Of a stretch of 64,000 nt of DNA, positions 760-60,417 are shown piece after piece; position 1 is the first letter of the stretch, and each line of letters opens with the position of its first letter. The notes under the pieces are model-generated. The model saw nothing but the letters and a program-made list of their open reading frames with translations. It ran no database searches and was not told the origin of the DNA. The stretch comes from Saprospira sp. CCB-QB6 (GTDB lineage: Bacteria; Bacteroidota; Bacteroidia; Chitinophagales; Saprospiraceae), in contig NZ_CP116808.1 in assembly GCF_028464065.1 (NCBI RefSeq), positions 186,001 to 250,000 on the forward strand, read 5' to 3'. The position numbers and the translations under genes were made by a program.

Positions 760-928
760 AGGCGGCAAAGCCGCTGTAAAGGAGCGCAGCGACTGGCCTA
801 GCGATGTGCAGCAGTGGCCGAAGGCCAGACCGAGTTTTTGAGCGCAGCTAAAAAACGAAGGGCCGAGCGAGCAGCGAGCCCCAAAGCGTAGCGCAGCAAG
901 GCGAAGCCGCAGCTGAGGCCCCAAAACA
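760..928 (+). repeat. GC-rich interspersed repeat, copy 1
   Basis: Member of the intergenic GC-rich family. Shared blocks are ggcctagcgatgtgcag, ggccgaaggccagaccgag, agggccgagcgagcagcgag and a terminal gaggccccaaaa. It fills the fbaB-trkA gap. A minus-strand open frame here (673-936) is an artefact of the repeat. Confidence 0.85.
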
Positions 929-981
929 GCCCCCAACTTTAAATAGTTATAATAAGCTTAACATTTTATAAAACTTCCTTG

Positions 982-989
982 TACTTTTG
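982..989 (+). promoter_or_regulatory. Candidate -7 box (TAnnTTTG) for trkA
   Basis: The sequence tacttttg matches the Bacteroidota -7 consensus TAnnTTTG, 24 bases before the trkA start. No convincing -33 TTG element is seen at the usual spacing. Confidence 0.4.
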
Positions 990-1013
990 CGGTAGAATAA
1001 AAGTTATCTACAA

Positions 1014-2357
1014 ATGAAAATCATTATTGCTGGAGCTGGAGAAGTGGGTTTCCACTTGGCTCGTCTGCTTGCCGATGAGCAGCAAGATATTACGCTTATA
1101 GACACCAACAAAGATCGATTAGCCTATATCGAGAACCGTTTGGATGTCCTCACCCTCAATGCTAATGCGGCCTCGACCAAGGCGCTGCGGCAGGCTAAAA
1201 TTGAGCGCACAGATATGCTCATTGCCGCCACAGCTTCTGAGACGACCAACATCACAATTGGTTTGATTGGTAAAAAATTGGGAGCTCGGCATAGTATTGT
1301 TCGGGTATCTAACTCTGAATATCTCTCCTGCGGAGAAGGCGATTTTTCTTTATTAGATTTGGGCATTGATGAATTGATTTCACCAGCGGCTTTGGTGACC
1401 CATGAAATTGAGCGCCTTTTGGAGCAATCTGGCGTAACTGATTCAATTGATTTTGGTGATGGTCAACTGAAGGTCGTAGGGGTGCATTTGGTAGAAGAAG
1501 ACGCCCCTATTTTGAATAAAAGCGTAGTGGAAGCGGCTGCGGCTCATGGCAAAAAGCTCATGCCCGTAGCCATCAGAAGAGGCTATAAAACGCTGATTCC
1601 TAGAGGAAACTCGGTTTTTAAGCAAAATGATTTTGCCTATTTTGTTTCCTGTGCCAAGGATTTGCCCGACCTCATGAAATTCACGGGCAAACCTGAGGTA
1701 AATATTCGCAATATCATGATTGTAGGGGGGAGTTTGATTGGACAGCAATCGGCCAAGCTACTCAGTCATAAGTATAATGTAAAGTTGGTAGAGCTCAATC
1801 GAGACAAATGCTATAATTTCGCCGAGCGTTTGCCTGAAACCCTTGTAATTCATGGTGATGCTCGTCAAGTGGATCTGCTCAAAGAAGAGAACATTGATGA
1901 GATGGATGCTTTTATTGCCGTAACGGGCAATTCAGAAACGAACATTATGTCTTGTTTGGTGGCTAAGTCTTTAGGCGTTCGCCAGACCATTGCGCTGGTT
2001 GAAAATATGGATTACATCCACCTTTCTCAGAATATTGGTATTGATACGCTAATCAATAAAAAGCTTTTGGCGGCTTCCAATATCTTTAAGTTTGTCCGCA
2101 AAGGTGAGGTATTAACCATCGGGAACTTGCATGGGGTACAGGCCGAAATTTTGGAATTTGAGGTCAAAGCCAAATCCAAAATCACCCGCTTCCCTATCCG
2201 CAAATTAGGTTTCCCTGAAGGGGCCATTATTGGTGGGGTACTTCGTGGTAGCCAAAGCTACACCCCACTTGGAGATTTTAAAATTGAAGAGGGCGACCGC
2301 GTAGTGGTCTTCACCCTTCCCGATGCCATTCGTAAAGTAGAACGTTTCTTTAAATAG
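1014..2357 (+). CDS. trkA: Trk potassium uptake protein TrkA
   Basis: Cytoplasmic NAD-binding regulatory subunit of the Trk K+ uptake system; family members gate the TrkH channel. The protein has 447 residues and the classical duplicated layout. A first RCK_N Rossmann domain opens at residue 1 with MKIIIAGAGEVGFHLARLL (GxGxxG) and the acidic end of beta-2 at LIDTNKDR, followed by an RCK_C domain. A second Rossmann domain starts near residue 233 with IMIVGGSLIGQQSA, followed by a second RCK_C domain that ends the protein (EEGDRVVVF). trkH follows after 9 bases, so the two are an operon. The start is the first ATG after the upstream repeat. Confidence 0.96.
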   Translation: MKIIIAGAGEVGFHLARLLADEQQDITLIDTNKDRLAYIENRLDVLTLNANAASTKALRQAKIERTDMLIAATASETTNITIGLIGKKLGARHSIVRVSNSEYLSCGEGDFSLLDLGIDELISPAALVTHEIERLLEQSGVTDSIDFGDGQLKVVGVHLVEEDAPILNKSVVEAAAAHGKKLMPVAIRRGYKTLIPRGNSVFKQNDFAYFVSCAKDLPDLMKFTGKPEVNIRNIMIVGGSLIGQQSAKLLSHKYNVKLVELNRDKCYNFAERLPETLVIHGDARQVDLLKEENIDEMDAFIAVTGNSETNIMSCLVAKSLGVRQTIALVENMDYIHLSQNIGIDTLINKKLLAASNIFKFVRKGEVLTIGNLHGVQAEILEFEVKAKSKITRFPIRKLGFPEGAIIGGVLRGSQSYTPLGDFKIEEGDRVVVFTLPDAIRKVERFFK

Positions 2358-2366
2358 CCCCCTAAA

Positions 2367-3869
2367 ATGCCTAAAAGTAGATTTCACCTCAAGGTCATTA
2401 TGAATGTAATGGGCAGTATGCTCTTTTTTAATGGCCTTTTTATGTTAGCTTGTTTACCAATAGCCCTAATCTACCAAGCCGAAGGCGGCGGGATGATGGA
2501 TATGGCTGGTTTTTGGGAGTTTCTAATTCCCGGTTTGGGCTCAATTCTTTTGGGGTTTGGCAGTTGGCTAGGCACCCGCAAGCATTCTGGCAACTTGAGC
2601 AAAAGAGATGGTTATTTAATTGTAAGCTTAGGTTGGCTCCTGATGTCAGTAGTGGGCGCCCTCCCCTATTATCTCTTTGGGGGACAAGAATTTCCCGATT
2701 TTGCCTGCGCCCTTTTTGAATCAGTCTCTGGATTCACCACTACAGGGGCTTCGGTTATCAATGATATTGAGGCTATGCCCCGATCTATTCTCTTCTGGCG
2801 ATCACTAACCCACTGGATTGGGGGAATGGGAATTATCGTACTCACTATTGCCATTTTGCCCCTTTTGGGAATTGGCGGGATGCAGCTTTTTGTGGCCGAG
2901 GCCCCTGGCCCCACTGCCGATAAATTGCACCCTCGAATTACGGAAACCGCCAAGCGGCTTTGGGTCATTTACGTCATGTTGACTGTTGTTGAAACCATTT
3001 TGTTACTTTTCTGTGGCCTAGACCTCTATCATGCCGTTAATCATGCTTTTGCCACCGTATCTACAGGGGGATTTTCTACGCAAAATGCCAGTTTGGCCGC
3101 CTATGGGCCTGCCGTGCATTATGTTGTGATTGTCTTCATGTTTTTGTCGGGGATGAATTTCTCCCTAACCTATTGGGGACTCAAGGGACAGTTACATCGC
3201 ATTTGGCGCAATGAAGAGTTTAGAGCCTATCTATTCTCCGTCCTTATTATTACCGCTATTGCCACTGCTCTCGTCTTTCATTACGACCCTCAAAAGCTAA
3301 ATGTCTCTTTAGAGGAAGCCTTTAGAGATGCGCTCTTCCAAGTGATTGCCGTTATTACCACTACGGGCTTTGTGACCGAGGATTTCACAGCTTGGGGGCC
3401 ATTTCTCAAGGTCGTTTTCTTCCTCATGATGTTTATGGGGGCCTCTGCAGGTTCTACCTCTGGAGGAGTGAAAATTGTTCGGCATATCCTTATCCTGAAG
3501 AACGGTATTTTAGAATTTAAACGTCAACTTCATCCCAATGCCATCTTGCCTTTGCGCTATAACAAAAAGGCCGTAGAGGGAAAAATCGCCTATAATGTAC
3601 TGGCCTTTTTCCTCATTTATATGGCCCTCTATTGCTTTGGCTGCCTCATTATGGCCGCTTGGGGCTTCGATTTTGAAACCGTTTTGGGATCGGTCGCTAC
3701 CTCTTTGGGTAATGTAGGGCCTGGCTTGGGACAGGTTAATCCTGTTTCCAATTTTGCCTTTTTCAATCAAGGACAAAAGTTTTTCCTCTCTTTCTTGATG
3801 CTACTTGGCCGACTAGAGCTCTTTACGGTGCTCATTGTACTCACGCCCTTCTTCTGGAAAAAATACTAG
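2367..3869 (+). CDS. trkH: Trk potassium channel subunit TrkH
   Basis: Integral inner-membrane K+-translocating subunit, partner of the adjacent TrkA. The 500 residues show many hydrophobic segments and the four pore loops of the TrkH/KtrB fold, each with its filter glycine: SGFTTTGASV (about 122-128), VSTGGFST (about 229-236), ITTTGFVT (about 330-336) and TSLGNVGPG (about 444-452). WIGGMGIIVL, typical of TrkH, is also present. An ATG at 2409 is a weaker alternative start. A strong terminator follows 25 bases after the stop, closing the trkA-trkH operon. Confidence 0.96.
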   Translation: MPKSRFHLKVIMNVMGSMLFFNGLFMLACLPIALIYQAEGGGMMDMAGFWEFLIPGLGSILLGFGSWLGTRKHSGNLSKRDGYLIVSLGWLLMSVVGALPYYLFGGQEFPDFACALFESVSGFTTTGASVINDIEAMPRSILFWRSLTHWIGGMGIIVLTIAILPLLGIGGMQLFVAEAPGPTADKLHPRITETAKRLWVIYVMLTVVETILLLFCGLDLYHAVNHAFATVSTGGFSTQNASLAAYGPAVHYVVIVFMFLSGMNFSLTYWGLKGQLHRIWRNEEFRAYLFSVLIITAIATALVFHYDPQKLNVSLEEAFRDALFQVIAVITTTGFVTEDFTAWGPFLKVVFFLMMFMGASAGSTSGGVKIVRHILILKNGILEFKRQLHPNAILPLRYNKKAVEGKIAYNVLAFFLIYMALYCFGCLIMAAWGFDFETVLGSVATSLGNVGPGLGQVNPVSNFAFFNQGQKFFLSFLMLLGRLELFTVLIVLTPFFWKKY

Positions 3870-3893
3870 ATCGTTACTATTGATTCCATCATT

Positions 3894-3925
3894 AAAAGAG
3901 CAGCTTTAAGGCTGCTCTTTTTTTA
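3894..3925 (+). terminator. Rho-independent terminator after trkH
   Basis: An 11-bp perfect stem (aaaagagcagc / gctgctctttt) with loop tttaag and a T-rich tail, 25 bases after the trkH stop. Confidence 0.9.
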
Positions 3926-3970
3926 TTGACTTCGCCCTTGACACAACAATATCATTCTATTATAATATTT

Positions 3971-4130
3971 TGGGGCTGCCCCGCCCTGCGGGCGGGTCGG
4001 GCTGTGTCGCAGCTCGCAGGTCTGCTCGGCCCTTAGGGGCTTTTGCTTCGCTTCAGCCCCTAGGGCTGCGGCTGCGCCGCACCACTATCCATCCCTCAGC
4101 CTGCGGCGGCTTTGCCGCCTGCTAGCCGTG
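3971..4130 (-). repeat. GC-rich interspersed repeat, copy 2
   Basis: Same family as copy 1 in reverse orientation: gggctgccccgccctgcggg, cgcagctcgcaggtctgctc, then ccatccctcagcctgcgg. Its variable slot holds a stem-loop around aggggcttttgcttcgcttcagcccct. Confidence 0.85.
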
Positions 4131-4320
4131 GCTGCAGGTTAAAACCAGCAGCCAATTCAGGAACAACAGAGCCAGCCTTTGACCAGTCCCCAAACTACCC
4201 AGTTGCCGAAGAAAATGGCCAAGAGAAAAAAGACAGTTGAGCGGCCACAACAAGCCCTTTAGTCCGCAGTTCGACGACCAACGGGAGTAACCGCCCGCCG
4301 AAGGCGGGAGGCCTAAAAAA
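4131..4320. repeat. Palindrome plus 'ccctttag' repeat module
   Basis: Begins with the palindrome gctgcaggttaaaaccagc... of the TTTYAA-core family (4131-4152). It then carries a module with gaaaatggccaagagaaaaaag, acaacaagccctttag and cagttcgacgaccaacggga, which recurs near 7593-7641, 29475-29521 and, reversed, 59680-59730. No gene. Confidence 0.7.
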
Positions 4321-4377
4321 ATCAAAACACAGATTTTCTTATTATAATTTTGAAAAGCAAATTACTTTTTTCAGCAA

Positions 4378-4563
4378 CTAGTACCTATCCAATATTTTTT
4401 GAATATCGAGCTCAAAATCAGAGTCAAATTTATATTTTATAATATTTTGGACCTCCTCCCAACTATCACAATGACTATGTCCTCCATCATACAGAAGTAT
4501 TAAGCCAATATTGTGTTCTTGATAATCAATAACTTTGAACTCTCCATGATTGCCAACTATGCC
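4378..4563 (-). pseudogene. C-terminal fragment of an unidentified small protein
   Basis: The minus strand reads about 61 codons of protein-like sequence (VGNHGEFKVIDYQEHN..., LILLYDGGHSHCDSWEE..., ending ILDRY and stop) between an in-frame TAA at 4564-4566 and the stop at 4378-4380. There is no plausible start codon. Its composition matches the small genes of this island, so it looks like the surviving 3' end of a gene whose front is lost or frameshifted. The family is not recognised; an immunity-type protein is possible from context. Confidence 0.45.
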
Positions 4564-4585
4564 TTAAACACAGGATTTTGGGGAG

Positions 4586-5083
4586 CTAAATTAGAGAGCT
4601 AGCGAACACAATTTTTGAAGGGAAATGCTCATCTGAAAAATAAAGATCTATTTCACTTTCCTTTAAGTGGTAATCTATAATATATTCGCCAAACATATAG
4701 ACCTCTGCTATTGTGCAATTAGCAAAATCATCTAATCGAAGAACAGTTGTATCTGTAATTAAAACGGGCCCTAATTGAGTATACAATATGGCTGAAATGT
4801 CGTCTGCTAAATAGCTAAACAGTATTTTTTTTCCACTTAGCATCGAAAAGGCAAATAGTTTTTGGCCAATTGCTATAACATAACTTTCCGTTCTTGCCAG
4901 ATAAATACTATGTTCTTCCTCCTTAAAATAGAGGCGGCTAGTATTCAATCTGAAGCCATAAGTAGTTGGTCCTGCATTCAATATAAAACAACTAGTTTCG
5001 TTAAGAGGACCTTCTTCATCTAGTAAAATATTGTGACTAGCTACTAGCATATCAAATAATGCTAGCTTTACTTTCTTAAGCAT
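4586..5083 (-). CDS. Hypothetical protein, tandem paralogue A
   Basis: 165 residues, family not recognised. The first 80 residues (MLKKVKLALFDMLVASHN... to KLFAFSM) equal those of the next gene at 5094-5591 except for one L/V change. After that the two proteins diverge sharply while staying alignable (QLGPVLITDTTVLRL versus QLGVVLVTRSSIIQL; ANCTIAEV versus ANCSVRVA). No signal peptide or membrane segment is evident, so it is probably cytoplasmic and beta-rich. The two genes are 10 bases apart and co-directional. Tandem copies with one constant and one diversified half, among immunity-like genes, suggest recombination between cassettes. Function unknown. Confidence 0.7.
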   Translation of the reverse strand: MLKKVKLALFDMLVASHNILLDEEGPLNETSCFILNAGPTTYGFRLNTSRLYFKEEEHSIYLARTESYVIAIGQKLFAFSMLSGKKILFSYLADDISAILYTQLGPVLITDTTVLRLDDFANCTIAEVYMFGEYIIDYHLKESEIDLYFSDEHFPSKIVFASSLI

Positions 5084-5093
5084 TATTTATTTT

Positions 5094-5591: not shown

Positions 5592-5626
5592 TACTTATTT
5601 CTTTTAAACTTAGACACCCTTTCCTG

Positions 5627-5776
5627 CGCCTAGAAGGAGCGAAGCGACTGGCCTAGCGATGTGCAGCTGGGCGGCGCAGCCGCAGACCCAGCAAAAAAGC
5701 GAAGCTTTTTTTGCGCAGGGCCGAGCAGACCTGCGAGCTGCGACACGTAGCGCCCGCCACAGGCGGGAGGCCCCAA
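5627..5776 (+). repeat. GC-rich interspersed repeat, copy 3
   Basis: Contains ggagcgaagcgactggccta, gcagggccgagcagacctgc and ggcgggaggccccaaa. The variable slot at 5691-5714 is gcaaaaaagc gaa gctttttttgc, a near-perfect hairpin. Confidence 0.85.
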
Positions 5777-5862
5777 ACTGCAAATCAATATAGATAGAGC
5801 TATTCGAGCAAAGGTGAATCATACTCCTAGTATGAACAAATCCCTAACATGTACTCCATCGA

Positions 5863-6246: not shown

Positions 6247-6308
6247 CTACGCCTACCCCCTTGATAAATTCACTTTGTTTGTGCCGATTTTGTCATACAC
6301 ATAGTTTT

Positions 6309-6440
6309 TTTGGGGATCTGCCGCCTTTGGCGGCCGGGCCCTTACAGGGCTCGCAGGTCTGCTCGGCCCTGCGCCAGCAAGCTGGCTGGGTCTGCCGCTG
6401 CGCGGCACCCTTTCAGGCCCCTAGGCCTGCGGCCCTTCGG
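6309..6440 (-). repeat. GC-rich interspersed repeat, copy 4
   Basis: Reads tttttggggatctgccgcct, cgcaggtctgctcggccctg, then the slot hairpin gccagc aa gctggc and ccctttcaggcccctaggcc. It joins directly to the long composite repeat at 6441-6712. Confidence 0.85.
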
Positions 6441-6712
6441 GCCTGTAGGATGGATATATACCTGTGGGTTGAAACCCACAGCCATGCAACAATCCCATTC
6501 TACATCTATAGTGCGGAGAGGATTAAAATCCTCTACCGCTTTGAACAAGGGTTATTTTTTCTTCGGTTGTTTGATTTTGTTTTTTCTCCCTCATAAATTT
6601 TATAGGAACCCTAGGGCCAAGGCCCTAGGCTAGCTAAAAAATCGTCATCCCCTCATTCGAGGAGATTTTCTGTTCCACTAGGCTCCATCAGCAAACAAGG
6701 GCTTTAGCCCGT
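6441..6712. repeat. Composite repeat R1, copy A
   Basis: About 270 bases, nearly identical to 11593-11939 and 29136-29442. It starts gcctgtaggatggatatata, holds the palindromes ctgtgggttgaaacccacag (6462-6481) and agaggattaaaatcctct (6517-6534), then ttttcttcggttgtttgatt, accctagggccaaggcccta and cgtcatcccctcattcgagg. Copy A departs from the others after about 6712. Confidence 0.85.
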
Positions 6713-7666
6713 CAGTTTGCATAGACCCGCAACCATGGGCTTCATCAGCCCATGGAAGAAAAGGCTAGCCAATATAATCTTTAAGCTTGTTTAAACGACC
6801 CTGGGCTGAAGCCCAGGCTTGTAGACTTGAGCGAACTAGCGGACTAAAGTCCTTGTTCGCTTTTCTTGCTTCTAAGGGCTCAAAACTGCCCAGCTGCTAA
6901 AAGACACTTTCTTTTTCTCCCTTTTTCAAAACTCCAAGAAAAAGTTGAGGGACTAATAAATTAGGGCGATGGGGTTGCACAAGCCCAAAATAGGGGTCCT
7001 CTAAGGTATAAATTAGGTCCAAAAACCCCAAAATACACCTTCTAAGCTTTGCTTTCAACTATAGGCACTGCTATTTAGATGTCCAAAACTTACTGGCTAA
7101 GTTTCTTGGCCCAAGAATAGCCGTCTCTGACTGTATTCAGTAGGTCTAAAGCAGCTAAATATCGTTCTACAACTCCTTGAATCCTCTTCTTGACAAGATA
7201 GATACAGTACTAAACTCCAGCCAAGAAGCAGTTTAGTCCTTAGAGGCTATACTTTTACCTTTGGCTCCAGTTTTTTTATCTCTAGCTCCAGTTTTTTTAT
7301 CTGTGACTGAAGTTGAGTATAAAAATGGTCCACTTTATTTACTCTCTTTAGGCAGTAAGCCTACTGAAAGCCTACAGCTTTAATACCGCCCAAATGGAGT
7401 AAACAACTCCAACAAAAGCGTAAAAAACAGCAGTGCAAGCGTACAATAGTCTAATGAAAGACTTCTGCTTATCCTTTCATCGATAGTTCTACAAGTTGGC
7501 TTGACTTGCAGTAGGTTTAGGCAAGACTCCAGACAATCCTAACATTAACTGCCGAAGAAAACAGCCCAAAGAAAAAAGACAGTTGAGCGGCCACAACAAG
7601 CCCTTTAGGGCGCAGTTCGACGACAGAAGGGAGTAACCGCCCGCCGAAGGCAGGAGGCCCCAAAAA
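6713..7666. other. Gene-free stretch with small hairpins
   Basis: No credible coding frame on either strand. The first part holds further inverted repeats (ccatgggcttcatcagcccatgg near 6734, cctgggctgaagcccagg near 6810, ggactaaagtcc near 6841). From about 6960 to 7560 the sequence is AT-balanced and unstructured, apart from a short direct repeat ctccagtttttttatct near 7265-7300. It ends with the 'ccctttag' module (7560-7660). It may be decayed coding DNA; nothing is recognisable. Confidence 0.6.
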
Positions 7667-8625: not shown

Positions 8626-8679
8626 CACTTTGGGCGTACTTCTAGCTCGACCTCTGGGTACAAACGAGTATCTATCTTC

Positions 8680-11454: not shown

Positions 11455-11600
11455 CGTTTCTTTTGGGGCCTGCCGCCTTTGGCGGCCGGGCTGTGTCAGG
11501 GCTCGCTGTTCGCTCGGCCCTGCGCCGCTTGCAGCGCCTGGGTCTGCGGCTGCGCCGCCCCCTTTTCCATCCCTAGGCCTGCGGCGCTCCGCGCCTGTAG
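11455..11600 (-). repeat. GC-rich interspersed repeat, copy 5
   Basis: Starts ttttggggcctgccgccttt. It contains gggctcgctgttcgctcggc, the slot stem gcgc cgcttgca gcgc, and ccctaggcctgcgg, then runs into composite repeat R1 copy B. Confidence 0.85.
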
Positions 11601-11939
11601 GATGGATATATACCTGTGGGTTGAAACCCACAGCCATGCAACAATCCCATTCTACATCTATAGTGCGGAGAGGATTAAAATCCTCTACCGCTTTGAACAA
11701 GGATTATTTTTTCTTCGGTTGTTTGATTTTGTTTTTGTCTCCCCCATAAATTTCATAGGAACCCTAGGGCCAAGGCCCTAGGCTATCGAAAAAATCGTCA
11801 TCCCCTCATTCGAGGGGATTTTCTGTTCCACTAGGCTACATCAGCAAAGAAGGGCTAAAATGTTTATTTATGGAGGGTTTCAACCCTCCATTGAACACAG
11901 AAATGCATTCGTTAATTGGCTGTAGGTTTCAACCTACAG
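11593..11939. repeat. Composite repeat R1, copy B
   Basis: About 347 bases, the longest R1 copy. It carries four TTTYAA-core palindromes: ctgtgggttgaaacccacag (11614-11633), agaggattaaaatcctct (11669-11686), tggagggtttcaaccctcca (11871-11890) and ctgtaggtttcaacctacag (11920-11939). It matches copy C at 29136-29442 nearly base for base. Confidence 0.85.
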
Positions 11940-12078
11940 TGGCCGAAGGCCAAACGGCCTAGCGATGTGTAGGGGTGGCCGAAGGCCAGAGCAAGCGGGC
12001 GCTGCCCGCGCAGGGCCGAGCGAGCAGCGAGCCCCGAAACGTAGCGCTGCAAGGCGAAGCCACAGCAGAGGCCCCAAA
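11940..12078 (+). repeat. GC-rich interspersed repeat, copy 6
   Basis: Contains ggccgaaggccaaacggcct, the slot hairpin gcgggc gct gcccgc (11995-12009), and a terminal gcagaggccccaaaaaacc. It abuts the stop of the membrane-protein gene at 12087. Confidence 0.85.
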
Positions 12079-12086
12079 AAACCTCC

Positions 12087-14660: not shown

Positions 14661-14890
14661 CTAGAAGCGGGCGAAGCCCGCTGGCTGAGGGATGGATAAG
14701 GGTGGCCGCAGGCCAGACCGAGCTTTTTGAGCAAAGCGAAAAAAGCGAAGGGCCGAGCGAACAGCGAGCCCTGACACAGCCCGACCCGACCAATAATTCA
14801 TGAGGGTTTTAACCCTCATTTTGTATAAGCTCGCAAAGCGATGCCGCTTTGCGCTGGGTTTCAACCCGGCGGAAGGGGCAGCCCCAAATC
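14661..14890 (+). repeat. GC-rich interspersed repeat, copy 7, with palindromes
   Basis: Reads gcgggcgaagcccgctggct, gtggccgcaggccagaccga, the slot gcttttt...gaaaaaagc, then gggccgagcgaacagcgagc. It continues with the palindrome atgagggttttaaccctcat (14800-14819) and gctgggtttcaacccggc (14853-14870), and ends ggggcagccccaaa. It fills the gap between hmgA and xseA. Confidence 0.85.
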
Positions 14891-17115: not shown

Positions 17116-17252
17116 TTTGGGCCTCCTGCCTGCGGCAGGCGCTACGTTTCGCAGCTCGCTATTCGCTCGGCCCTTCGGCGCTTGCAGCGCCTCGGTCTGG
17201 CCTAACGGCCACTGCTGCACATCGCTAGGCCGGTCGTCGCTTCGCTCCTCCC
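17116..17252 (-). repeat. GC-rich interspersed repeat, copy 8
   Basis: Reads tttttttgggcctcctgcct, cgcagctcgctattcgctcg, the slot stem ggcgc ttgca gcgcc, and ggtctggcctaacggccact, ending in ctgcacatcgctaggcc. Confidence 0.85.
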
Positions 17253-18175: not shown

Positions 18176-18392
18176 TGCAGGCCTTGGCCTGCAGCGGCTG
18201 AGGGATGGAAAAGGGTGGCCGAAGGCCAGACCGAGCCAGCTTGCTGGCGATGGGCCGAGCAGACTTGCGAGCCTGAAACAGCCCGACCCGCCCGATAATT
18301 CATGAGGGTTTCAACCCTCATTTTGTATAGCTTCGCAAAGCGATACCGCTTTGCGCTGGGTTTCAACCCGACGGAAGGGGCAGCCCCAAAAC
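18176..18392 (+). repeat. GC-rich interspersed repeat, copy 9, with palindromes
   Basis: Reads gcagcggctgagggatggaa, ggtggccgaaggccagaccg, the slot hairpin gccagc tt gctggc (18235-18248) and gggccgagcagacttgcgag. It then has atgagggtttcaaccctcat (18302-18321) and gctgggtttcaacccgac, ending ggggcagccccaaa. Layout equals copies 7 and 17. Confidence 0.85.
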
Positions 18393-21539: not shown

Positions 21540-21691
21540 GTTTGGGGCTGCCCCGCCCTACGGGCGGGTCGGGCTGTTTCGCAGCTCGCTGTTCGCTCGG
21601 CCCTTCGGCGGCACAGCCGCCTTGGTCTGGCCTTCGGCCACTGCTGTCCATCCCTCAGCCTGCGGCCCTTCGGGCCTGTCCCGCAAAAGGA
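21540..21691 (-). repeat. GC-rich interspersed repeat, copy 10
   Basis: Reads tggggctgccccgccctacg, cgcagctcgctgttcgctcg, the slot hairpin ggcggc aca gccgcc (21607-21621), ggtctggccttcggccactg, and ccatccctcagcctgcgg. Confidence 0.85.
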
Positions 21692-23369: not shown

Positions 23370-23503
23370 GCAGGCCCGATAGGGCCGCAGGCCTAGCGAT
23401 GTGCAGCAGTGGCCGAAGGCCAGACCGAAGCCTGAAAGGCTGAAGGGCCGAGCGAATAGCGAGCTGCGAAACGTAGCGCCTGCCGCAGGCAGGAGGCCCC
23501 AAA
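23370..23503 (+). repeat. GC-rich interspersed repeat, copy 11
   Basis: Reads cgatagggccgcaggcctag, ggccgaaggccagaccgaag, the slot hairpin agcct gaa aggct (23429-23441), and gggccgagcgaatagcgagc, ending caggcaggaggccccaaaa. It interrupts the TonB cluster between two genes. Confidence 0.85.
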
Positions 23504-23534
23504 ACAACATACTATATATAGGCCAGTAAAAAAT

Positions 23535-25494: not shown

Positions 25495-25730
25495 AATCTG
25501 CCAGTAGATTTAGGGTTAAAAATCGATATGATGGGCTAGGAAACTAGCAATTTTAGCAATAATAAATAATATTTCGACAAGAAAAAGGCTTTGAAGGTTT
25601 AATTTCTATTTAAAGGCCTTTAAACTGCTGGATTCTATTTTTTACGTCTGCCAAGGCCTGAAGCGCCCTGATAGACCTGACTTTTAGCCTCTTCTTAAAA
25701 GAAAACTGTCCTTTAGCTATTTAGTGGATA

Positions 25731-26036
25731 AAAAATAGCTTGCTGAACCTTGGGATAGCACATATCTGCGCAGAAAATAGCCCACTGAACCTTAGGATGG
25801 CACATATCTGCGTAAAAAATAGCCTTCTGAACCTTAGGATGGCACATATCTACCCAAAAAATAGCCCACTAAACCTTAGGATGGCACATATCTACCCAAA
25901 AAATAGCCTCCTGAACCTTAGGATAGCACATATCTACGCAAAAAATAGCCCACTAAACCTTAGGATAGCACATATCTGCCCAAAAAATAGCCCACTAAAC
26001 CTTAGGATAGCACATATCTGCCCAAAAAATAGCCGA
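25731..26036. repeat. 42-bp tandem repeat, seven units
   Basis: Units of the form ctgaaccttaggatggcaca, tatctgcgtaaaaaatagcc plus two bases repeat head to tail with a few substitutions and no spacers. The 42-base period keeps one plus-strand frame open (25740-26060, TTG start), which would read as LNLRMAHIYPKNSP repeats. I see no start signal and treat it as a minisatellite between exbB and the receptor gene. A repetitive peptide cannot be excluded. Confidence 0.85.
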
Positions 26037-26190
26037 AAAGAGATCAACTTAGAAGGCTAAGTTAGTCTAGAATGGCTTACCTACAAAACCTTAACAATTA
26101 CCTCTATCTATTAACGGCGTCTTAATAAAATCTATATGCTTCTTCATAAAGAGCTAAACTCCAGCTAAAGTAGGGCTAAGACTAGAAGCG

Positions 26191-28918: not shown

Positions 28919-28954
28919 TAGCCCTAGTAGTTTTAACTACTGGGGCTTTTTTTT
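28919..28954 (+). terminator. Terminator after the TonB-dependent receptor
   Basis: Stem agccctagtag / ctactggggct with loop ttttaa, followed by eight T, 30 bases after the stop. The loop repeats the TTTYAA core of the palindrome family. Confidence 0.85.
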
Positions 28955-29116
28955 GGGGCCTGCCGCCTTCGGCGGCCGGGCCCTTACAGGGCTCGCAGGT
29001 CTGCTCGGCCCTGCGCCAGCAAGCTGGCTGGGTCTGCCGCTGCGCGGCCCCCTTGCAGGCCCCTAGGCCAAGTCGCTTCGCTCCTTTGCGGCGGCTTCGC
29101 CGCCTGTTAGCCGTGG
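28954..29116 (-). repeat. GC-rich interspersed repeat, copy 12
   Basis: Reads tttggggcctgccgccttcg, cgcaggtctgctcggccctg, the slot hairpin gccagc aa gctggc and gcaggcccctaggcc. Its slot equals that of copy 4. Confidence 0.85.
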
Positions 29117-29442
29117 CTGCAGGTTAAAACCAGCAGCCATACAACAACCCCATTCTACATCTATAGTGCGGAGAGGATTAAAATCCTCTACCGCTTTGAA
29201 CAAGGATTATTTTTTCTTCGGTTGTTTGATTTTGCTTTTGTCTCCCCCATAAATTTCATAGGAACCCTAGGGCCAAGGCCCTAGGCTATCGAAAAAATCG
29301 TCATCCCCTCATTCGAGGGGATTTCCTGTTCCACTAGACTCCATCAGCAAAGAAGGGCTAAAATGTTTATTTATGGAGGGTTTCAACCCTCCATTGAACA
29401 CAAAAATGCATTCGTTAATTGGCTGTAGGTTTCAACCTACAG
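29117..29442. repeat. Composite repeat R1, copy C
   Basis: Starts with a gctgcaggttaaaaccagc-type palindrome (29117-29137). It then matches R1 copy B: agaggattaaaatcctct (29172-29189), the ccctagggccaaggcc block, tggagggtttcaaccctcca (29374-29393) and ctgtaggtttcaacctacag (29423-29442). Confidence 0.85.
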
Positions 29443-29637
29443 GCCCATATAGCAGGCCCCTAGGGCCGCAGGCCACAACAAGCCCTTTAGGGCGCAGTTC
29501 GACGACCAACGGGAGTAACCGATGTGCAGGGGGTGGCCGTAGGCCAGACCAAGGCGGCAAAGCCGCCGCAGGGCCGAGCGAACAGCGAGCCCCGAAACGT
29601 AGCGCCGCAAGGCGAAGCCGCAGCGGAGGCCCCAAAA
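29443..29637 (+). repeat. GC-rich interspersed repeat, copy 13
   Basis: Contains the 'ccctttag' module (29475-29521), gatgtgcagggggtggccgt, the slot hairpin ggcggc aaa gccgcc (29553-29567), and gggccgagcgaacagcgagc, ending gcggaggccccaaaa. Confidence 0.85.
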
Positions 29638-29703
29638 ATTTATCCCAATAAGCTATTTTTCTACTAGTTAGTGCTTGCTACAAAAAACTATAGCGAAAAA
29701 CGA

Positions 29704-30753: not shown

Positions 30754-30964
30754 ATATTAGGTTTTATGGATTTATTATTTTAGCTTTTATTCCACTCGGT
30801 CTTACTACACAAACAACTTCATATAAAGTCAGTTAATTACAAAAAAATCAGATTAGGCACACAAGCCCTTTAGGGCGTATTTGATGACATTCTAGCGCCC
30901 GCCGAAGGCGGGAGGCCTACTTCCTTTCTAAATAAATGTTTTGAATAATTCTTCTCCTTGGGGG

Positions 30965-32054
30965 GGCCTTGTTGTATAAATCGTAACTTACTGATTAGTA
31001 ACAACTTCCAACTTGACAGCATTAAGCTCATTTAAAATTTGAATACGCATCAGGACTTCTTGCTTCTGCATTTTAAAGCTGAGCGAAGAGAGCCGTTCAG
31101 AGAAAAAGTGCTTGAGTCGCATCATTGCAGTTTCGCTTAAATTTCGACGATGATAGCCTAAATCTTGTTTCCAAGCAGTAGCTCCCAACTCCCAGATATA
31201 TAAAATATCATCATTGCGATAACTGTCAACCAGCTCTCCATCTTTTCCTTTTTTTAGGCGAGCATTTTTACGTGGGGGAATAAACGGTACCGCTCCAGCC
31301 TTACAAATTGCTTCCCGACATTTTATTTGGTCATAGGCGCCATCTGCATAAACTTGGCGGATATTCAAGGATTTCATTTTTTTCATCATTTTGGGGAGTT
31401 GAGAAGCATCGGTTTTTCGCTCTGTGGTAATCTCTACAGATAATATTTCTCCTGTTTTATCATCCACTGCTAAATGTACTTTAATCCAGCTAGAGCGCTG
31501 CTTTTCCAAGTATTTTTTTCTTAACCATTCTCCCTGTCCTTTTGTTTTTAGTCCTGTACTATCTATTGCTACCGATCTTTCTTTAGTCCTCTTTTTAGAC
31601 TTAATATTCAGTTTTAGTTTCTTGACTCTACGATATATTTGAGTAAAAGATATGGGCTTAGCATCCAAATTATATTTGGAAATAACGCATTTTAGAATAC
31701 CTTCTAATTGTCGATATCCAAAAGAAAAAAGCACTTTTAAACGGAATAAATAGCGAATAAATTCATCAGAAATTGTTTTAGGTCTGCCGCGTTTTGAAGG
31801 CTTAGCTATGAGGTTTTTGCTTGCCAAAGGCGGGAACCAAACATTAAAAAGAAACTTACCTTGGGCCGTATAAAATCTGTTGGTTAGTGCGTAATTCTGT
31901 ATGTTTTTTTTAGATTTGTCATGGGACAGCTCGAGGTTTTATTGTTCGTCGAAAAAACTTAAATCTACGGGGCTTGTCCCTTTTTTTATGCCTAATTCGC
32001 AAGGTTTTTTGTAATTAGCTGGTTTTTAATTTATTAGATTTATGCAACAAGGCC
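30965..32054 (-). mobile_element. IS903-like insertion sequence (IS5 family), copy 1
   Basis: 1090 bases bounded by 18-bp terminal inverted repeats (ggccttgttgtataaatc at 30965-30982 and gatttatgcaacaaggcc at 32037-32054, one mismatch). It is flanked by a 9-bp target duplication, ccttggggg, at 30956-30964 and 32055-32063. The repeats closely resemble the published IS903 end, and a 9-bp duplication is typical of that IS5 subgroup. It carries one transposase gene. Copy 2 lies at 58423-59511. The insertion cut the 3' end of the gene now ending at 32040. Confidence 0.93.
30988..31827 (-). CDS. IS5-family DDE transposase
   Basis: 279 residues from a TTG at 31827. The frame stays open further upstream and encodes family-like sequence (ALTNRFYTAQGKFLFNVWF) with no ATG. 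An ATG at 31922 starts MTNLKK in the other frame and meets a run of eight A, where a -1 slip would join the frames. The DDE core is visible: VAIDSTGLKTKGQGEW, the second Asp in VYADGAYDQIK, and the late Glu region in LGYHRRNLSETAMMRLKHFF. The catalytic frame is intact, so this copy may be active. Confidence 0.9.
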   Translation of the reverse strand: MASKNLIAKPSKRGRPKTISDEFIRYLFRLKVLFSFGYRQLEGILKCVISKYNLDAKPISFTQIYRRVKKLKLNIKSKKRTKERSVAIDSTGLKTKGQGEWLRKKYLEKQRSSWIKVHLAVDDKTGEILSVEITTERKTDASQLPKMMKKMKSLNIRQVYADGAYDQIKCREAICKAGAVPFIPPRKNARLKKGKDGELVDSYRNDDILYIWELGATAWKQDLGYHRRNLSETAMMRLKHFFSERLSSLSFKMQKQEVLMRIQILNELNAVKLEVVTNQ

Positions 32055-32453
32055 CCTTGGGGGATGATACCAACAAAAATAATCTTTATAATTATCCTTT
32101 TCCACCCTTATTATAATATAATTAGTATAATCTATACTCACAGAATAATACCCACGATGATCTGTTTTCAAATAAAAAGTATCTGCGCCCTGATAGGAAT
32201 CATAATTTTGAGTACCTCTATCTGACATAAATCGGTCACTATAAATGACTACAGCGGTATTAGTCAAGCGCTGATTTGTGTTTTCATCCATAACAATCCC
32301 CTCGACTTTCACATTTCTTTGATCCACATTAGAAATAATAGCCAATACTACATAGGCAACAAAAAGCGCCACTGCCAAGCAGGAAAATAGCAGGCTGTAT
32401 AAGAACCAACGAATAAATTTGAGGATCTTTTTTTTCTTGGCTGCTGGACTCAT
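32040..32453 (-). pseudogene. CarboxypepD_reg-like membrane protein, 3' end cut by IS
   Basis: The ATG at 32453 (MSPAAKKKKILKFIRW) matches the paralogue at 32991-33425 and is preferred over 32525. A membrane segment (about 15-40) is followed by a small beta domain (VKVEGIVMDENTNQRLTNTA, TDHRGYYSVSIDYTNYII) of the CarboxypepD-regulatory type. The IS adds GLVA and a stop after HPPR. Removing the IS and one target copy restores PPRRRIIQNIYLERK and a stop at 30917, which matches the end of the paralogue. The product is therefore truncated by about 13 residues and may still fold. Confidence 0.85.
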
Positions 32454-34861: not shown

Positions 34862-35018
34862 GAGCTTGCGCAGAGCCGCCCCAATTGGCTGAGGGGCTGG
34901 AGCAGGGCCGCCGAAGGCGGCAGACCAAGGAGCCAAAGGCGACGCAGGGCCGAGCAGACCTGCGAGCTGCGCAATGGCCCGACCCAAGGCCAAAGGCCGC
35001 AGGGGCAGCCCCAAAAAA
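34862..35018 (+). repeat. GC-rich interspersed repeat, copy 14
   Basis: Reads ggctgaggggctggagcagg, gccgaaggcggcagacc, an eroded slot (ggagcc aaa ggcgac), gcagggccgagcagacctgc and ggccgcaggggcagccccaa. It fills the gap between two divergent genes. Confidence 0.8.
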
Positions 35019-36389: not shown

Positions 36390-36520
36390 TGGGGCCCGCG
36401 GCCGGCTAGGCTGCGCCTAGGTCGGCCGCCGCTATGCTGCGCCGCTCGCAGGTCTGCTCGGCCCTGCGTCGCTTTGCTCCTTGGTCTGGCGCTTCGCGCC
36501 ACGGCTGCGCAGCGCTGGGC
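36390..36520 (-). repeat. GC-rich interspersed repeat, copy 15
   Basis: Reads ttttggggcccgcggccggc, cgctcgcaggtctgctcggc, cctgcgtcgctttgctcctt and ggtctggcgcttcgcgccac. The extra ggctaggctgcgcctaggtc hairpin at its start is shared with copy 21. Confidence 0.8.
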
Positions 36521-40906: not shown

Positions 40907-41040
40907 TGGGGCCTCCCGCCTAGGGCGGGCGCTACGTTGCGCAGCTCGCTGTTCGCTCGGCCCTGCAGCCCTGCGGGCTTTGGTCTGCCGCCTTCGGGCC
41001 ACTGCTGCACATCGCTAGGCCAGGCGGGCTGCGCCCGCTT
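40907..41040 (-). repeat. GC-rich interspersed repeat, copy 16
   Basis: Reads ttttggggcctcccgcctag, cgcagctcgctgttcgctcg, the slot hairpin agccc tgc gggct (40967-40979), and ggtctgccgccttcgggcca, ending ctgcacatcgctaggcc. Confidence 0.85.
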
Positions 41041-41103: not shown

Positions 41104-41334
41104 TACAGGCCCAAAGGGCCGCAGGCTGAGGGATGAACAGTGGTGGCGCGAAGCGCCAGACCCAGTTTTTTGAGCGTAGCGAAAAAAACGCAGGGCCGAG
41201 CAGACCTGCGAGCCCACGAACAGCCCGACCCGCCCGATAATTCATGAGGGTTTTAACCCTCATTTTGCATAAGTTCGCAAAGCGGTATCGCTTTGCGCTG
41301 GCTTTCAACCCAACGGGCGGGGCAGCCCCAAAAA
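41104..41334 (+). repeat. GC-rich interspersed repeat, copy 17, with palindromes
   Basis: Reads aggcccaaagggccgcaggc, the slot gttttttgagcgtagcgaaa, gcagggccgagcagacctgc, then atgagggttttaaccctcat (41244-41263) and a worn gctggctttcaacccaac, ending ggggcagccccaaaa. Confidence 0.85.
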
Positions 41335-45596: not shown

Positions 45597-45770
45597 GGCC
45601 AGAAAAGCGGCCCCATTGGCCCTTTGGGCCAAAATGGCTTAGGGATGGATAGTGGTGGCCGAAGGCCAGACCGAGCAAAAATGCGCAGCATTTTTTGCGA
45701 AGGGCCGAGCGAACAGCGAGCCACGACACAGCCCGACCCAAGGCCGAAGGCCGCAGGGGAAGCCCCAAAA
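45597..45770 (+). repeat. GC-rich interspersed repeat, copy 18
   Basis: Reads attggccctttgggccaaaa, gatggatagtggtggccgaa, the slot hairpin gcaaaaatgc gca gcattttttgc (45675-45698), and gggccgagcgaacagcgagc, ending ggccgcaggggaagccccaa. It separates uppS and rimM. Confidence 0.85.
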
Positions 45771-48263: not shown

Positions 48264-48432
48264 CTTTTTTTGGGCTGCCCCTGCGGCCTACGGCCTTGGG
48301 TCGGGCTATGTCGTGGCTCGCTATTACTTGCTTCGCTGCGTCGGCTCCCGTTGGTCGGGTCGCTCGGCCCTGCGCAAAAAAACAAGTTTTTTGCTTGGTC
48401 TGCGGCTGCGCCGCACCACTTTCCATCCCTCA
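48264..48432 (-). repeat. GC-rich interspersed repeat, copy 19
   Basis: Reads tttgggctgcccctgcggcc, ttacttgcttcgctgcgtcg, gctcccgttggtcgggtcgc, the slot gcaaaaaaacaagttttttgc, then ccactttccatccctcagcc. The ttacttgcttcgctgcgtcg segment recurs only in copy 20, on the other side of the CRISPR locus. Confidence 0.82.
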
Positions 48433-54255: not shown

Positions 54256-54304
54256 AGAAGTAGTGATCTATCAGTTGAAAGAATATTAAACTAAAATGCT
54301 AAGA

Positions 54305-55054: not shown

Positions 55055-55098
55055 GATTATTTGTATTAAAAGTGATCCACAATTTTAGCTTAGAAAGC

Positions 55099-55572: not shown

Positions 55573-55581
55573 AACAAATAT

Positions 55582-58326: not shown

Positions 58327-58352
58327 TATTTTTTCTAGTATATAAACAAAAG

Positions 58353-58389
58353 AGACCTACAGCAATCCATTTAAAATTGCTGTAGGTCT
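58353..58389. promoter_or_regulatory. Perfect inverted repeat just upstream of cas10
   Basis: Two 14-base arms (agacctacagcaat, 58353-58366; attgctgtaggtct, 58376-58389) with a 9-base loop lie 27 bases before the cas10 ATG. On the minus strand the hairpin is followed by tcttttgttt, so it could be an attenuator or insulator between the IS and the operon, or an operator. It is a single unit, not a CRISPR repeat. Confidence 0.6.
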
Positions 58390-58422
58390 ATAAGTCTTTA
58401 TTTTTAATATAGGCTCTCCACC

Positions 58423-59511
58423 GGCCTTGTTGCATAAATCTAACAAATTAAAAACCAGTTAATTACAAAAAACCTTGCGAATTAGGCATAAAAAAAGGGA
58501 CAAGCCCCGTAGATTTAAGTTTTTTCGACGAACAATAAAACCTCGAGCTGTCCCATGACAAATCTAAAAAAAACATACAGAATTACGCACTAACCAACAG
58601 ATTTTATACGGCCCAAGGTAAGTTTCTTTTTAATGTTTGGTTCCCACCTTTGGCAAGCAAAAACCTCATAGCTAAGCCTTCAAAACGCGGCAGACCTAAA
58701 ACAATTTCTGATGAATTTATTCGCTATTTATTCCGTTTAAAAGTGCTTTTTTCTTTTGGATATCGACAATTAGAAGGCATTCTAAAATGCGTTATTTACA
58801 AATATAATTTGGATACTAAACCCATATCTTTTACTCAAATATATCGTAGAATCAAGCAACTAAAGCTGAATATTAAGTCTAAAAAGAGGGCTAAAGAAAG
58901 ATCGGTAGCAATAGATAGTACAGGACTAAAAACAAAAGGACAGGGAGAATGGTTAAGAAAAAATACTTGGAAAAGCAGCGCTCTAGCTGGATTAAAGTAC
59001 ATTTAGCAGTGGATGATAAAACAGGAGAAATATTATCTGTAGAGATTACCACAGAGCGAAAAACCGATGCTTCTCAACTCCCCAAAATGATGAAAAAAAT
59101 GAAATCCTTGAATATCCGCCAAGTTTATGCAGATGGCGCCTATGACCAAATAAAATGTCGGGAAGCAATTTGTAAGGCTGGAGCGGTACCGTTTATTCCC
59201 CCACGTAAAAATGCTCGCCTAAAAAAAGGAAAAGATGGAGAGCTGGTTGACAGTTATCGCAATGATGATATTTTATATATCTGGGAGTTGGGAGCTACTG
59301 CTTGGAAACAAGATTTAGGCTATCATCGTCGAAATTTAAGCGAAACTGCAATGATGCGACTCAAGCACTTTTTCTCTGAACGGCTCTCTTCGCTCAGCTT
59401 TAAAATGCAGAAGCAAGAAGTCCTGATGCGTATTCAAATTTTAAATGAGCTTAATGCTACCAAGTTGGAAATTGCTGCTAATCAGTAAATTACGATTTAT
59501 GCAACAAGGCC
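58423..59511 (+). mobile_element. IS903-like insertion sequence (IS5 family), copy 2
   Basis: 1089 bases with perfect 18-bp terminal inverted repeats (ggccttgttgcataaatc at 58423-58440; gatttatgcaacaaggcc at 59494-59511). It has a 9-bp target duplication ctctccacc at 58414-58422 and 59512-59520. Nearly identical to copy 1. Intact ends and duplication point to a recent insertion, directly upstream of the cas10 operon and pointing away from it. Confidence 0.93.
58650..59488 (+). pseudogene. Frameshifted IS5-family transposase
   Basis: Same transposase as in copy 1, with a few amino-acid changes (ISKYNLDAK to IYKYNLDTK, RTKERS to RAKERS). A run of seven A in copy 1 is six here (58958-58963), which breaks the frame after KGQGEWLRK. 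The second half continues in another frame as KYLEKQRSSWIKVHLAVDDK. The gene cannot make full-length transposase unless the polymerase slips. A sequencing error in the A-run is the alternative. Confidence 0.85.
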
Positions 59512-59908
59512 CTCTCCACCACGATTTATTTGTTTTGTCTTTAGGTTCTCCCAAATTAGCTTTCAAAAATAAAAAAAGCAAGTTTTGCCTTTCTTTTTCA
59601 CAAAAAAGGAACTAGCTGTCCAGCCTATCTAGAATATTTTATTTTTTCTGTTTTTTTATAGGCCTCGCTACGCTCGTCGGCGGTTACTCCCTTTGGTCGT
59701 CGAACTGCGCCCTAAAGGGCTTGTTGTCGTTTCGCAGCTCGCTGTTACTTGCTTCGCTGCGTCGGCTCCCGTTGGTCGGGTCACTCGGCTCTGCCCTTCG
59801 GCCAGCCTTTGATAAAAATTTTAAGCTAGTTATGGAGGGGAAAAATAACGATGAATAGCTGGAAATTAAATCAAAGGATAGAAGTGACAGGGCTTTTATT
59901 TGGCCTTT
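59512..59908 (-). repeat. Gene-free stretch with GC-rich repeat copy 20
   Basis: Bases 59665-59812 hold the repeat: ggcggttactccctttggtc, ccctaaagggcttgttgtcg, ttacttgcttcgctgcgtcg, gctcccgttggtcgggtcac, then cggccagcctttg. The first two blocks are the 'ccctttag' module reversed. 59520-59660 and 59815-59908 show no gene and no structure I recognise. Confidence 0.75.
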
Positions 59909-60155
59909 GCCGCTCATCCATTTTTTTTCTTGGGGCTTTTTTCTCCGGCCTTTTGAGGGTATTGTTTTTTCCTACTATTTCTAGCCCCATAGATTAAAAA
60001 CCCACAGCAAAAAAGAAAGCTATTCTACATCAAAAAAAATGAGCCGAAGGTTAAAACCATCGGCCCATAAAAAATGGACTAAAAATCATTGCCTGCCTAA
60101 GAACAAACTCCTAGGCTAAGTTTTTTTGTCAGCTCGCTAAAGAGGGCCTCTTTTT
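59909..60155 (+). repeat. 247-bp direct repeat, right copy
   Basis: Same orientation and, by eye, same sequence as 48433-48679. It lies 397 bases beyond IS copy 2. Inside is the palindrome-like gccgaaggttaaaaccatcg, a worn member of the TTTYAA family. Confidence 0.9.
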
Positions 60156-60270
60156 ATTTTAAAAAATAAAATTCTCTGTTTTTTTATCCCAATTGCTAAT
60201 TGAAAGCCGCTAATTGAAAAGGGGGATTTAAGGGCCGAAGAAAAAAGCCCAGAGAAAAAACTAAAGCTGT

Positions 60271-60417
60271 GCAGGCCCAGCGCTGCGCAGGGGTGGCCGA
60301 AGGCCAGACCGAGTTTTTTGAGCGTAGCGAAAAAAAAACGAAGGGCCGAACAGACCTGTGAGCCCCGCAGCATAGCGGCGGCCAAACTAGGCAAAGCCTA
60401 GTTTGGCCGCGGGCCCC
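60271..60417 (+). repeat. GC-rich interspersed repeat, copy 21
   Basis: Reads gcaggcccagcgctgcgcag, gggtggccgaaggccagacc, the slot gttttttgagcgtagcgaaa, gggccgaacagacctgtgag and a closing ggccaaactaggcaaagcct hairpin with cgcgggccccaaa. A stretch before it (60180-60230) shares the ccaattgctaattgaaagcc block with the 458-bp array. Confidence 0.82.

Follow-up and report, generated by a model that had tools for sequence, protein, structure and literature searches.

The window analysed here is a stretch of 64,000 nucleotides (bases 186,001–250,000 of contig 1) of the 4.24-Mb genome of Saprospira sp. CCB-QB6 (G000), a predatory marine bacterium. Scattered through it are copies of a GC-rich repeat, hereafter the element, which is a lineage-specific family with around 1,000 intergenic copies per genome. 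The element keeps its fold although its stems vary, with the two arms of a stem changing in step. At the sites open to comparison, genomes with 4–15% flank divergence almost always carry it in the same position and orientation, and within that time the contents of the stems turn over, often one module at a time (hairpin C, B or J) or for the P2 domain together with what it encloses. On balance, we favour a DNA-hairpin repeat family with a presumed function that stays at fixed sites and whose stems are rewritten one by one via ectopic exchange between copies.

Copies, anatomy and covarying fold

Copies of the element were detected with a covariance model of its core (R1; 64 positions, arranged as P2-B-C-J-P2) and with a strict sequence pattern (CAGACCNAG-N(6-36)-RGGGCCGA). 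At E<0.001 the model yielded 20 core copies, which lie on either strand of the window, and another five weaker matches had E up to 1; the copy density is one per 3.2 kb. These values agree with the first-pass annotation of the window, which had counted about 21 copies, roughly one per 3 kb and in both orientations, and the eight slot sequences quoted there are all present where it placed them. Genome-wide copy numbers rest on the pattern, since the model scores at most 150 candidates per genome. The pattern matched 1,057 times in the window genome (517 forward and 540 reverse, showing no orientation bias along the genome) and the reversed pattern, used as a control, did not match at all. In the genomes taken to be those of S. 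grandis DSM 2844 (G001), Lewin (G002) and WHT (G005), the pattern matched 1,008, 987 and 961 times, respectively. Two further Saprospira genomes (G003 and G004, 63% and 90% complete) gave no pattern match, and a synteny probe (P0001) did not match in either of them. The scan of relatives covered 40 genomes, the window genome included, of which 34 lie outside the genus; the strict pattern was found in two of these 34 (once in G011 and twice in G014). Other organisms among the contigs listed in an exact-pattern scan, Lewinella cohaerens included, had one match each, which we read as chance. With the core model, applied to at most 150 candidates per genome, none of nine other genomes (G003, G004 and G006–G012) gave a match.

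A detailed catalogue was made of 372 strict-anchor copies from 400 kb each of the window genome (129), Lewin (121) and WHT (122). A looser catalogue (254, 254 and 266 matches per 400 kb) included numerous false slots and the strict set was therefore used, which under-counts copies with altered anchors or replaced interiors. Orthologous copies among the three genomes are not independent. On the written strand, the element begins with an optional hairpin A and the 5' arms of the long-range helices P1, P3 and P2. The interior consists of hairpin B, GACC, the slot (hairpin C), GGGCC and the small hairpin J (CGAGC...GCGAG), after which come the 3' arms of P2 and P3, hairpin D, the 3' arm of P1, CC and an A-run. 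The median P1-to-P1 length is 119 nt (range 106–201, n=334) and the median distance between the P2 arms is 59 nt.

Paired variation had been noted before in the slot; hairpins A, B and D and the three long-range helices P1, P3 and P2 vary in the same paired way. The 5' arm of P1 (GGCCT, GGCTG, GGCCC or GGCTT) could be parsed in 351 of the 372 copies, and its partner was present in 329 of them, compared with 117.2±8.1 after shuffling, with four pair types. The arms of P3 are linked by type (AGGGATG occurs with AGCCCG in 104/106 copies and AGGGGCC with GGGCCCG in 22/23), and in P3 type 2 (n=103) T-A was seen 62 times, C-G 24 times, G-C 4 times and other combinations 13 times. The arms of P2 were complementary in 348 of 369 copies versus 156.8±7.6 after shuffling. 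The slot shows 60 distinct 5' arms among 371 stems. All five outer pairs were Watson-Crick in 302 of 344 testable slots, compared with 24.9±4.9 when the 3' arms were shuffled among copies. When distinct outer arm pairs were counted, 22 of 37 were fully Watson-Crick (1.1 after shuffling) and the remaining 15 carried one or two mismatches (G.A in 6, G.T in 4). The slot had been described as always self-complementary, which is true of the majority of copies but slightly too strong in view of the mismatched arm pairs.

A multiple alignment of 66 full copies by MAFFT misaligned the slot and P1, and pair counting was therefore restricted to 25 of 37 cores of one design (16-nt slot and a perfect 5-bp hairpin B, so that B was unable to break). 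In these equal-length cores, two-sided changes were found in 44 cells and a one-sided change in 1, and the covariation score was 0.228 versus 0.079 after shuffling. The number of further pair types (10) was not in excess of the shuffles, of which 152 out of 500 reached this value. Unconstrained DNA folding of 23390–23507, the exemplar of Table 1, and of 45636–45770 returned the covariation fold up to register shifts; for P2 of the exemplar the energy fold uses the register neighbouring the covariation one.

Nearly fixed sites and changing contents

Orthologous sites were compared on the basis of 700-nt flanks outside the element, the mean flank identity being 95.7% for Lewin and WHT. A collinear WHT interval was found for 87 of the 121 Lewin copies; the other 34 fall outside the comparison, which limits the case for fixed sites. 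Of the 87 intervals, 78 contained one copy in the same orientation, one contained only a copy in the opposite orientation, and eight failed the strict anchors. Seven of these eight keep the element or its outer frame, four of them with the interior replaced by another hairpin module. Thus 86 intervals hold the element or its frame, and a clean empty site was not found among the 87.

The contents were compared in 74 Lewin/WHT pairs: 33 were the same in all five scored modules and 41 differed in at least one. Differences were seen in the 5' arm of C in 29 pairs, in B in 23, in P2 in 20 and in P1 in 3. The change patterns included C alone (5 pairs), B alone (3), J alone (3) and P2, B and C together with P1 unchanged (13). 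Both arms of C differed in 31 of the 78 pairs, by one base in 4, by two in 9 and by three or more in 18. At the larger distance between the window genome and Lewin (85% flank identity), 42 of 129 copies were collinear and the C arms differed in 32 of 37; the other 87 copies have no collinear Lewin interval in the stretches compared and were left out, which again narrows the case. For DSM 2844, 17 of 21 copies had an interval in at least one other genome. Module differences between strains may in part be assembly errors at repeats; however, the flanks are collinear, and module differences were present in every strain pair compared.

The origin of the replaced modules was assessed in the 35 pairs whose slots differ. 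A paralogue from the same genome gave a longer exact match than the orthologue did in 51 of 70 tests (medians of 50.5 and 31 nt, respectively). The test favours the best of about 120 copies over a single orthologue, but it gave the reverse for unswapped copies (medians 40 and 86 nt). The copies, taken from the same 400 kb, represent about one eighth of the possible donors. Better matches to paralogues than to orthologues are the mark that ectopic exchange would leave in the sequence.

Some sites do not conform to this picture. Interval 109, one of the eight unmatched Lewin/WHT intervals, holds no element, and at about 65.7 kb on contig 1 of the window genome the element interior is lost at one orthologous site, where the P1 frame and a hairpin are left. 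The slots of DSM 2844 are identical in 4/15 intervals of Lewin, 3/16 of WHT and 0/14 of the window genome, and intervals without a canonical core numbered 1, 2 and 5, respectively.

The probable folded strand and the upkeep of pairing

In its pairs and loops, the fold resembles single-stranded DNA more than it does RNA. Among 2,628 anchored pairs of the slot, 5 were G.T (0.2%) and 1 was A.C, compared with 95 G.T (4.0%) and 22 A.C among 2,372 pairs in 240 terminator-like hairpins outside elements in the same stretches (Fisher p 4e-25). When each distinct slot was counted once, G.T made up 5 of 1,118 pairs (p 3e-11). The stems of the slot contain 185 G.A mismatches, of which 154 are in 5'-GA-3' tandems. 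The loops are predominantly GNA triloops, found in 152/234 hairpins A, 273/371 B, 157/371 C and 103/232 D (685 in total), whereas the corresponding numbers for TNC loops are 3, 1, 1 and 3 (8 in total). A further 56 loops are GNYA, and of the 1,208 loops classified 2 are GNRA and none is UNCG. Outside the elements, a GNA loop was found in 4 of 545 perfect hairpins of at least 7 pairs, and 161 of the 240 terminator-like hairpins have four-base loops. DNA mini-hairpins that have a GNA or GNNA loop and G-C pairs are described as extraordinarily stable (PMC4686876), and loops of rRNA as enriched in GNRA, UNCG and CUUG (PMC8794818). Read from the complementary strand, G.A pairs would be T.C and GNA loops TNC; the signal is therefore strand-specific and belongs to a single strand and not to a symmetric cruciform.

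A structured RNA in untranslated regions (acting in mRNA stability or attenuation, or as a dispersed non-coding RNA), shaped by compensatory evolution plus exchange, has a real but minor probability. The strong covariation on one strand, with the covarying stems typical of structured non-coding RNAs, counts in its favour. The G.U pairs and RNA-type loops typical of such RNAs do not characterise the stems; G.T is rare, not absent, and the loops are of the GNA and GNYA types. RNA is thus disfavoured by the rare G.T pairs together with the GNA loops. A search of the window against Rfam 15 gave 12 matches at E≤1, all below the gathering score.

The genomic context was determined with simple open reading frame (ORF) picks on the three 400-kb stretches. 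Elements were masked, because these GC-rich sequences lengthen ORFs and unmasked calls put 73 copies inside ORFs. With the masked calls the extragenic placement claimed in the first-pass annotation was recovered: between co-directional genes 131 copies are sense and 93 antisense, and 76 lie between convergent and 72 between divergent genes. The element is held by 65/152 convergent, 190/616 co-directional and 66/150 divergent gene pairs, and by 298/423 gaps of at least 200 bases. Both orientations occur in every gene context, the 72 divergent copies included, which speaks against an RNA role, and the element does not look like a gene-specific regulator. A terminator role was rejected, as the element is followed by an A-run and not by a T-run.

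Several observations favour RNA over DNA, or are neutral between the two, and weigh against the reading preferred here. The excess of sense copies (131:93) is slight but is what an RNA role would predict (p 0.013 when the copies, which lack independence, are pooled; 52:36 with p 0.11 for the window genome by itself). The G.T deficit shrinks to 1.0% (5/513, p 2.5e-4) versus 4.0% when each of the 66 distinct arm pairs is counted once, and the G.T:A.C ratio of the slot (5:1) is like that of the terminator-like hairpins (95:22). Two other window copies, DNA-folded in the same way as the exemplar, do not reach the covariation fold. The DNA folding z-scores of the four window copies were modest (−2.19, −1.75, −0.61 and −0.55, the first two being those of the copies that do reach the fold), and the RNA z-scores of those copies were similar or better (−2.09, −1.97, −0.91 and −1.69). 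At locus 106 the P2 arms changed together (ACTGG/CCAGT versus GTGG/CCAC) with the intervening B and C arms unchanged, a two-sided change that fits the RNA reading and also bears on the constraint on the fold.

P2 served to ask if selection or the exchange itself maintains the pairing. As a null model, real P2 arms were swapped in simulations in which the tract ends fell randomly among seven linkers; P2 stayed paired in 49% of the events that altered the 3' arm. Between Lewin and WHT, P2 was paired in both genomes for 20 of 21 changes (p 7e-6), and 19 of these 21 had an altered 5' zone as well. Slots differed at 35 loci, and at 32 of these neither stem has a mismatch other than G.A. For the closest pair, the P2 result suggests that the fold is under constraint; this signal is weak in the older pairs, where the values are near the null (10/14, p 0.08, for the window genome and Lewin; 11/15, p 0.05, for the window genome and WHT). 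Also unfavourable are locus 12, at which P2 is one-armed and mispaired, and locus 9, at which the 5' zone is unchanged and pairs with either 3' arm. Our confidence is lowered because the P2 argument is confined to the closest pair and because counting distinct arms makes the G.T deficit smaller. The first-pass annotation had proposed selection on a folded RNA or single-stranded DNA or, alternatively, a mechanism that rewrites both arms together. Of the former, selection on a fold is retained for the closest strains and RNA is disfavoured. The latter also finds support: both arms at orthologous loci often change together, mostly as modules present elsewhere, and much of the slot covariation is therefore module exchange.

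In the favoured reading, the written strand, most likely as single-stranded DNA, would fold into a cloverleaf-like structure with P1-P3-P2 as closing stem, B, C and J inside it, D on the 3' side and often a further hairpin upstream. Stem contents would be replaced by ectopic exchange between copies, either by gene conversion or by replication template switching; the conserved linkers GACC, GGGCCGAGC and GCGAG could provide short homologies, and the hairpins could act as stall or exchange points. Weak purifying selection on the folded DNA would eliminate most mispaired outcomes. As a guess, the fold might serve as a docking site for a structure-specific DNA-binding protein or might be a topological intergenic feature, with a role comparable to that of BIMEs. 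The simplest reading is that the fold is under selection. A bolder one, which appears unlikely to us, takes the closed stem as the unit of exchange: an enzyme or replication acting on the extruded folded strand would cut or switch at the stem bases, and pairing would be preserved by mechanism rather than by selection. If true, hairpins and nested domains would be traded intact among around 1,000 fixed genomic sites, by a stem-wise recombination system new to description.

Exchange without any selection, in which nothing more than ectopic gene conversion and hairpin-templated repair would make the copies uniform and their arms perfect, is in our opinion quite unlikely. Homogenisation by exchange could alone keep stems perfect, which counts against a role for selection; the replaced modules indeed match other copies better, template switching has been argued to create and maintain hairpins (PMC8794818), and the older P2 comparisons lie near the null. 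This account does not explain why the closest strains keep P2 paired so far above the expected 49%, why the G.A mismatches persist uncorrected, or why the loops are G-N-A with a free middle base on one strand. Local template switching is expected to give inverted loops, contrary to the loops observed.

A REP/BIME-like family moved by a Y1 (RAYT) transposase is very improbable: the high-copy intergenic palindromes and the three Y1 genes of the window genome (each different from the others) would suit it, but no Y1 gene common to all four repeat-bearing genomes was found, the sole Y1 of Lewin is 54% identical to its nearest relative and about 30% or less to the rest, Y1 genes are also present in genomes without the repeat, and 86 of the 87 collinear Lewin/WHT intervals are occupied. 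A shared Y1 partner of the kind suggested earlier was thus not found. For the reverse transcriptase suggested along with it, matches occur with and without the repeat (one each in G000, G002, G005 and G003, two each in G001 and G004). That of the window genome, the only one classified, is a type XIII retron reverse transcriptase (PADLOC, E 1.5e-188) at about 975.5 kb on contig 1, with element copies flanking it on both sides. A retron was rejected as the source of the element: the long perfect hairpin upstream of this gene is unlike the element as judged by eye, and reverse transcriptases are also found in the repeat-free G003 and G004. An integron origin was likewise rejected, as none of six genomes had an integron integrase (IntI, TIGR02249) over the curated cut-off; sub-threshold matches were also seen in all 14 control genomes.

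Window features and comparison with known systems

Table 1. Core copies of the element in the window and parts of the exemplar fold (coordinates of the window).
Feature	Position	Strand	Score or basis
Element core	811..882	+	R1 59.4 bits
Element core	4009..4085	-	R1 36.3 bits
Element core, A/T-rich slot module	5663..5741	+	R1 32.9 bits
Element core, adjoins composite block also present at 11.5 and 29 kb	6346..6411	-	R1 52.0 bits
Element core, left arm of inverted pair around ~400-nt block	11498..11562	-	R1 54.6 bits
Element core, right arm of inverted pair with 11498..11562	11972..12035	+	R1 78.6 bits
Element core, slot with T-run, GAGC, AAA loop, tandem G.A	14699..14772	+	R1 68.1 bits
Element core	17151..17215	-	R1 78.6 bits
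Element core, gccagc/gctggc slot	18212..18275	+	R1 56.5 bits
Element core, ggcggc/gccgcc slot	21581..21644	-	R1 88.7 bits
Element core, exemplar for fold	23406..23467	+	R1 71.6 bits
Element core	28988..29053	-	R1 44.7 bits
Element core, ggcggc/gccgcc slot, without canonical P1 5' arm	29530..29593	+	R1 90.2 bits
Element core	34902..34970	+	R1 40.5 bits
Element core	36441..36505	-	R1 42.0 bits
Element core, agccc/gggct slot	40941..41005	-	R1 54.4 bits
Element core	41140..41217	+	R1 38.0 bits
Element core, gcaaaaatgc/gcattttttgc slot	45652..45724	+	R1 71.4 bits
Element core, enlarged J domain	48341..48419	-	R1 27.7 bits, E 2.6e-4
Element core	60290..60366	+	R1 54.9 bits
Exemplar P1 5' arm, GGCCT, pairs with AGGCC at 23494-23498	23390..23394	+	DNA fold
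Exemplar P2 5' arm, GCAG, pairs with CTGC at 23464-23467	23406..23409	+	covariation register
Exemplar hairpin B, TGGCC-GAA-GGCCA	23410..23422	+	DNA fold
Exemplar hairpin C (slot), AGCCT-GAA-AGGCT	23429..23441	+	DNA fold
Exemplar P2 3' arm, CTGC	23464..23467	+	covariation register
Exemplar hairpin D, CCTGCC-GCA-GGCAGG	23479..23493	+	DNA fold
Exemplar P1 3' arm, then CC and A-run	23494..23498	+	DNA fold

Composite blocks with further variable palindromes are present at 6309–6900, 11461–12080 and 28951–29640 of the window; inverted element copies enclose a block of about 400 nt in at least the two found at 11.5 and 29 kb. A related composite in DSM 2844 is bounded by duplicated element ends of 46 nt and sits next to an assembly gap of 100 N, and the same site in WHT and in the window genome is without it. 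A second hairpin family, centred on GGTTTYAACC and with arms that vary in pairs, was seen at 11908–11942, 29411–29445, around 14795–14815 and at 62326–63416, and related modules stand in for the interior of the main element at some WHT loci. The segments 30964–32079 and 58398–59512 form an inverted pair of about 1.1 kb, 96–99% identical and with ORFs, which is probably an insertion sequence, and 25688–26076 is a tandem array with a 42-nt period that overlaps an ORF of 106 codons. The two element-free genomes were sampled over 136.5 kb of G004 and 58.4 kb of G003; in G004 another abundant short palindrome, CCGATAGCTATCGG, is among the top 12-mers, together with arm variants such as CCGAAAGCTTTCGG. 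In Lewin, overlapping 12-mers with about 41 occurrences per 100 kb hint at a large CRISPR array.

The open-access literature searched gave no description of this repeat; an earlier mention is possible in the two previous S. grandis genome papers (PMC3368406, PMC3387799), and the announcement of the WHT genome does not mention repeats (PMC10508125). High-copy palindromic repeats are common in bacteria, and their upkeep and turnover are poorly understood. The element offers around 1,000 natural replicates per genome at nearly fixed sites, with module replacement visible when strains of a single species are compared. A static position, a conserved fold and a changing sequence can thus be told apart, so that selection and the exchange process can be asked about directly and the evolution of folded DNA becomes testable. 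The data also hold a warning: strong covariation in a dispersed repeat need not imply a structured RNA, as the pair and loop types here lean to DNA. To our knowledge, no described repeat combines nearly fixed sites, nested long-range stems and stem-wise replacement.

Like REP, BIME and REPIN sequences, the element is high-copy, extragenic and palindromic and occurs in both orientations. REP palindromes are given as 20–40 bp in size (PMC3733652), and their folded single strand is described as the substrate of the RAYT (TnpA-REP) enzyme (PMC8266576). The Saprospira element differs in being about 119 nt long with several long-range stems, in interior stems that vary yet pair, in its nearly static sites with exchanged contents, and in the lack of a Y1 transposase common to the genomes that bear it. 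The recent mobility of miniature elements derived from IS200/IS605 was not apparent from the 87 Lewin/WHT intervals (of 121 copies), which include no clean empty site; one composite insertion, that beside the assembly gap in DSM 2844, was seen. Integron attC sites are recognised by their folded single-strand structure rather than by their sequence, and the fold of the element is likewise strand-specific; unlike attC arrays, the element occurs in both orientations, with no cassette arrays seen and no integrase above the cut-off. The retron msr-msd offers no closer parallel, the sequence upstream of the type XIII reverse transcriptase being unlike the element by eye. BOX elements of Streptococcus pneumoniae are, like the Saprospira element, modular dispersed intergenic repeats able to fold; they differ in host, and stem-wise exchange at fixed loci is not known for BOX. 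The mitochondrial DHE of Allomyces, RHE of sponges and GC clusters of yeast are likewise GC-rich intergenic hairpin repeats that are lineage-specific and linked to recombination. The stems of sponge RHE are described as conserved and the loops as variable (PMC2800124), whereas in Saprospira the stems vary in pairs and the G..A of the loop is kept. The mitochondrial elements consist of one to three hairpins, in contrast to the nested multi-stem fold of the Saprospira element.

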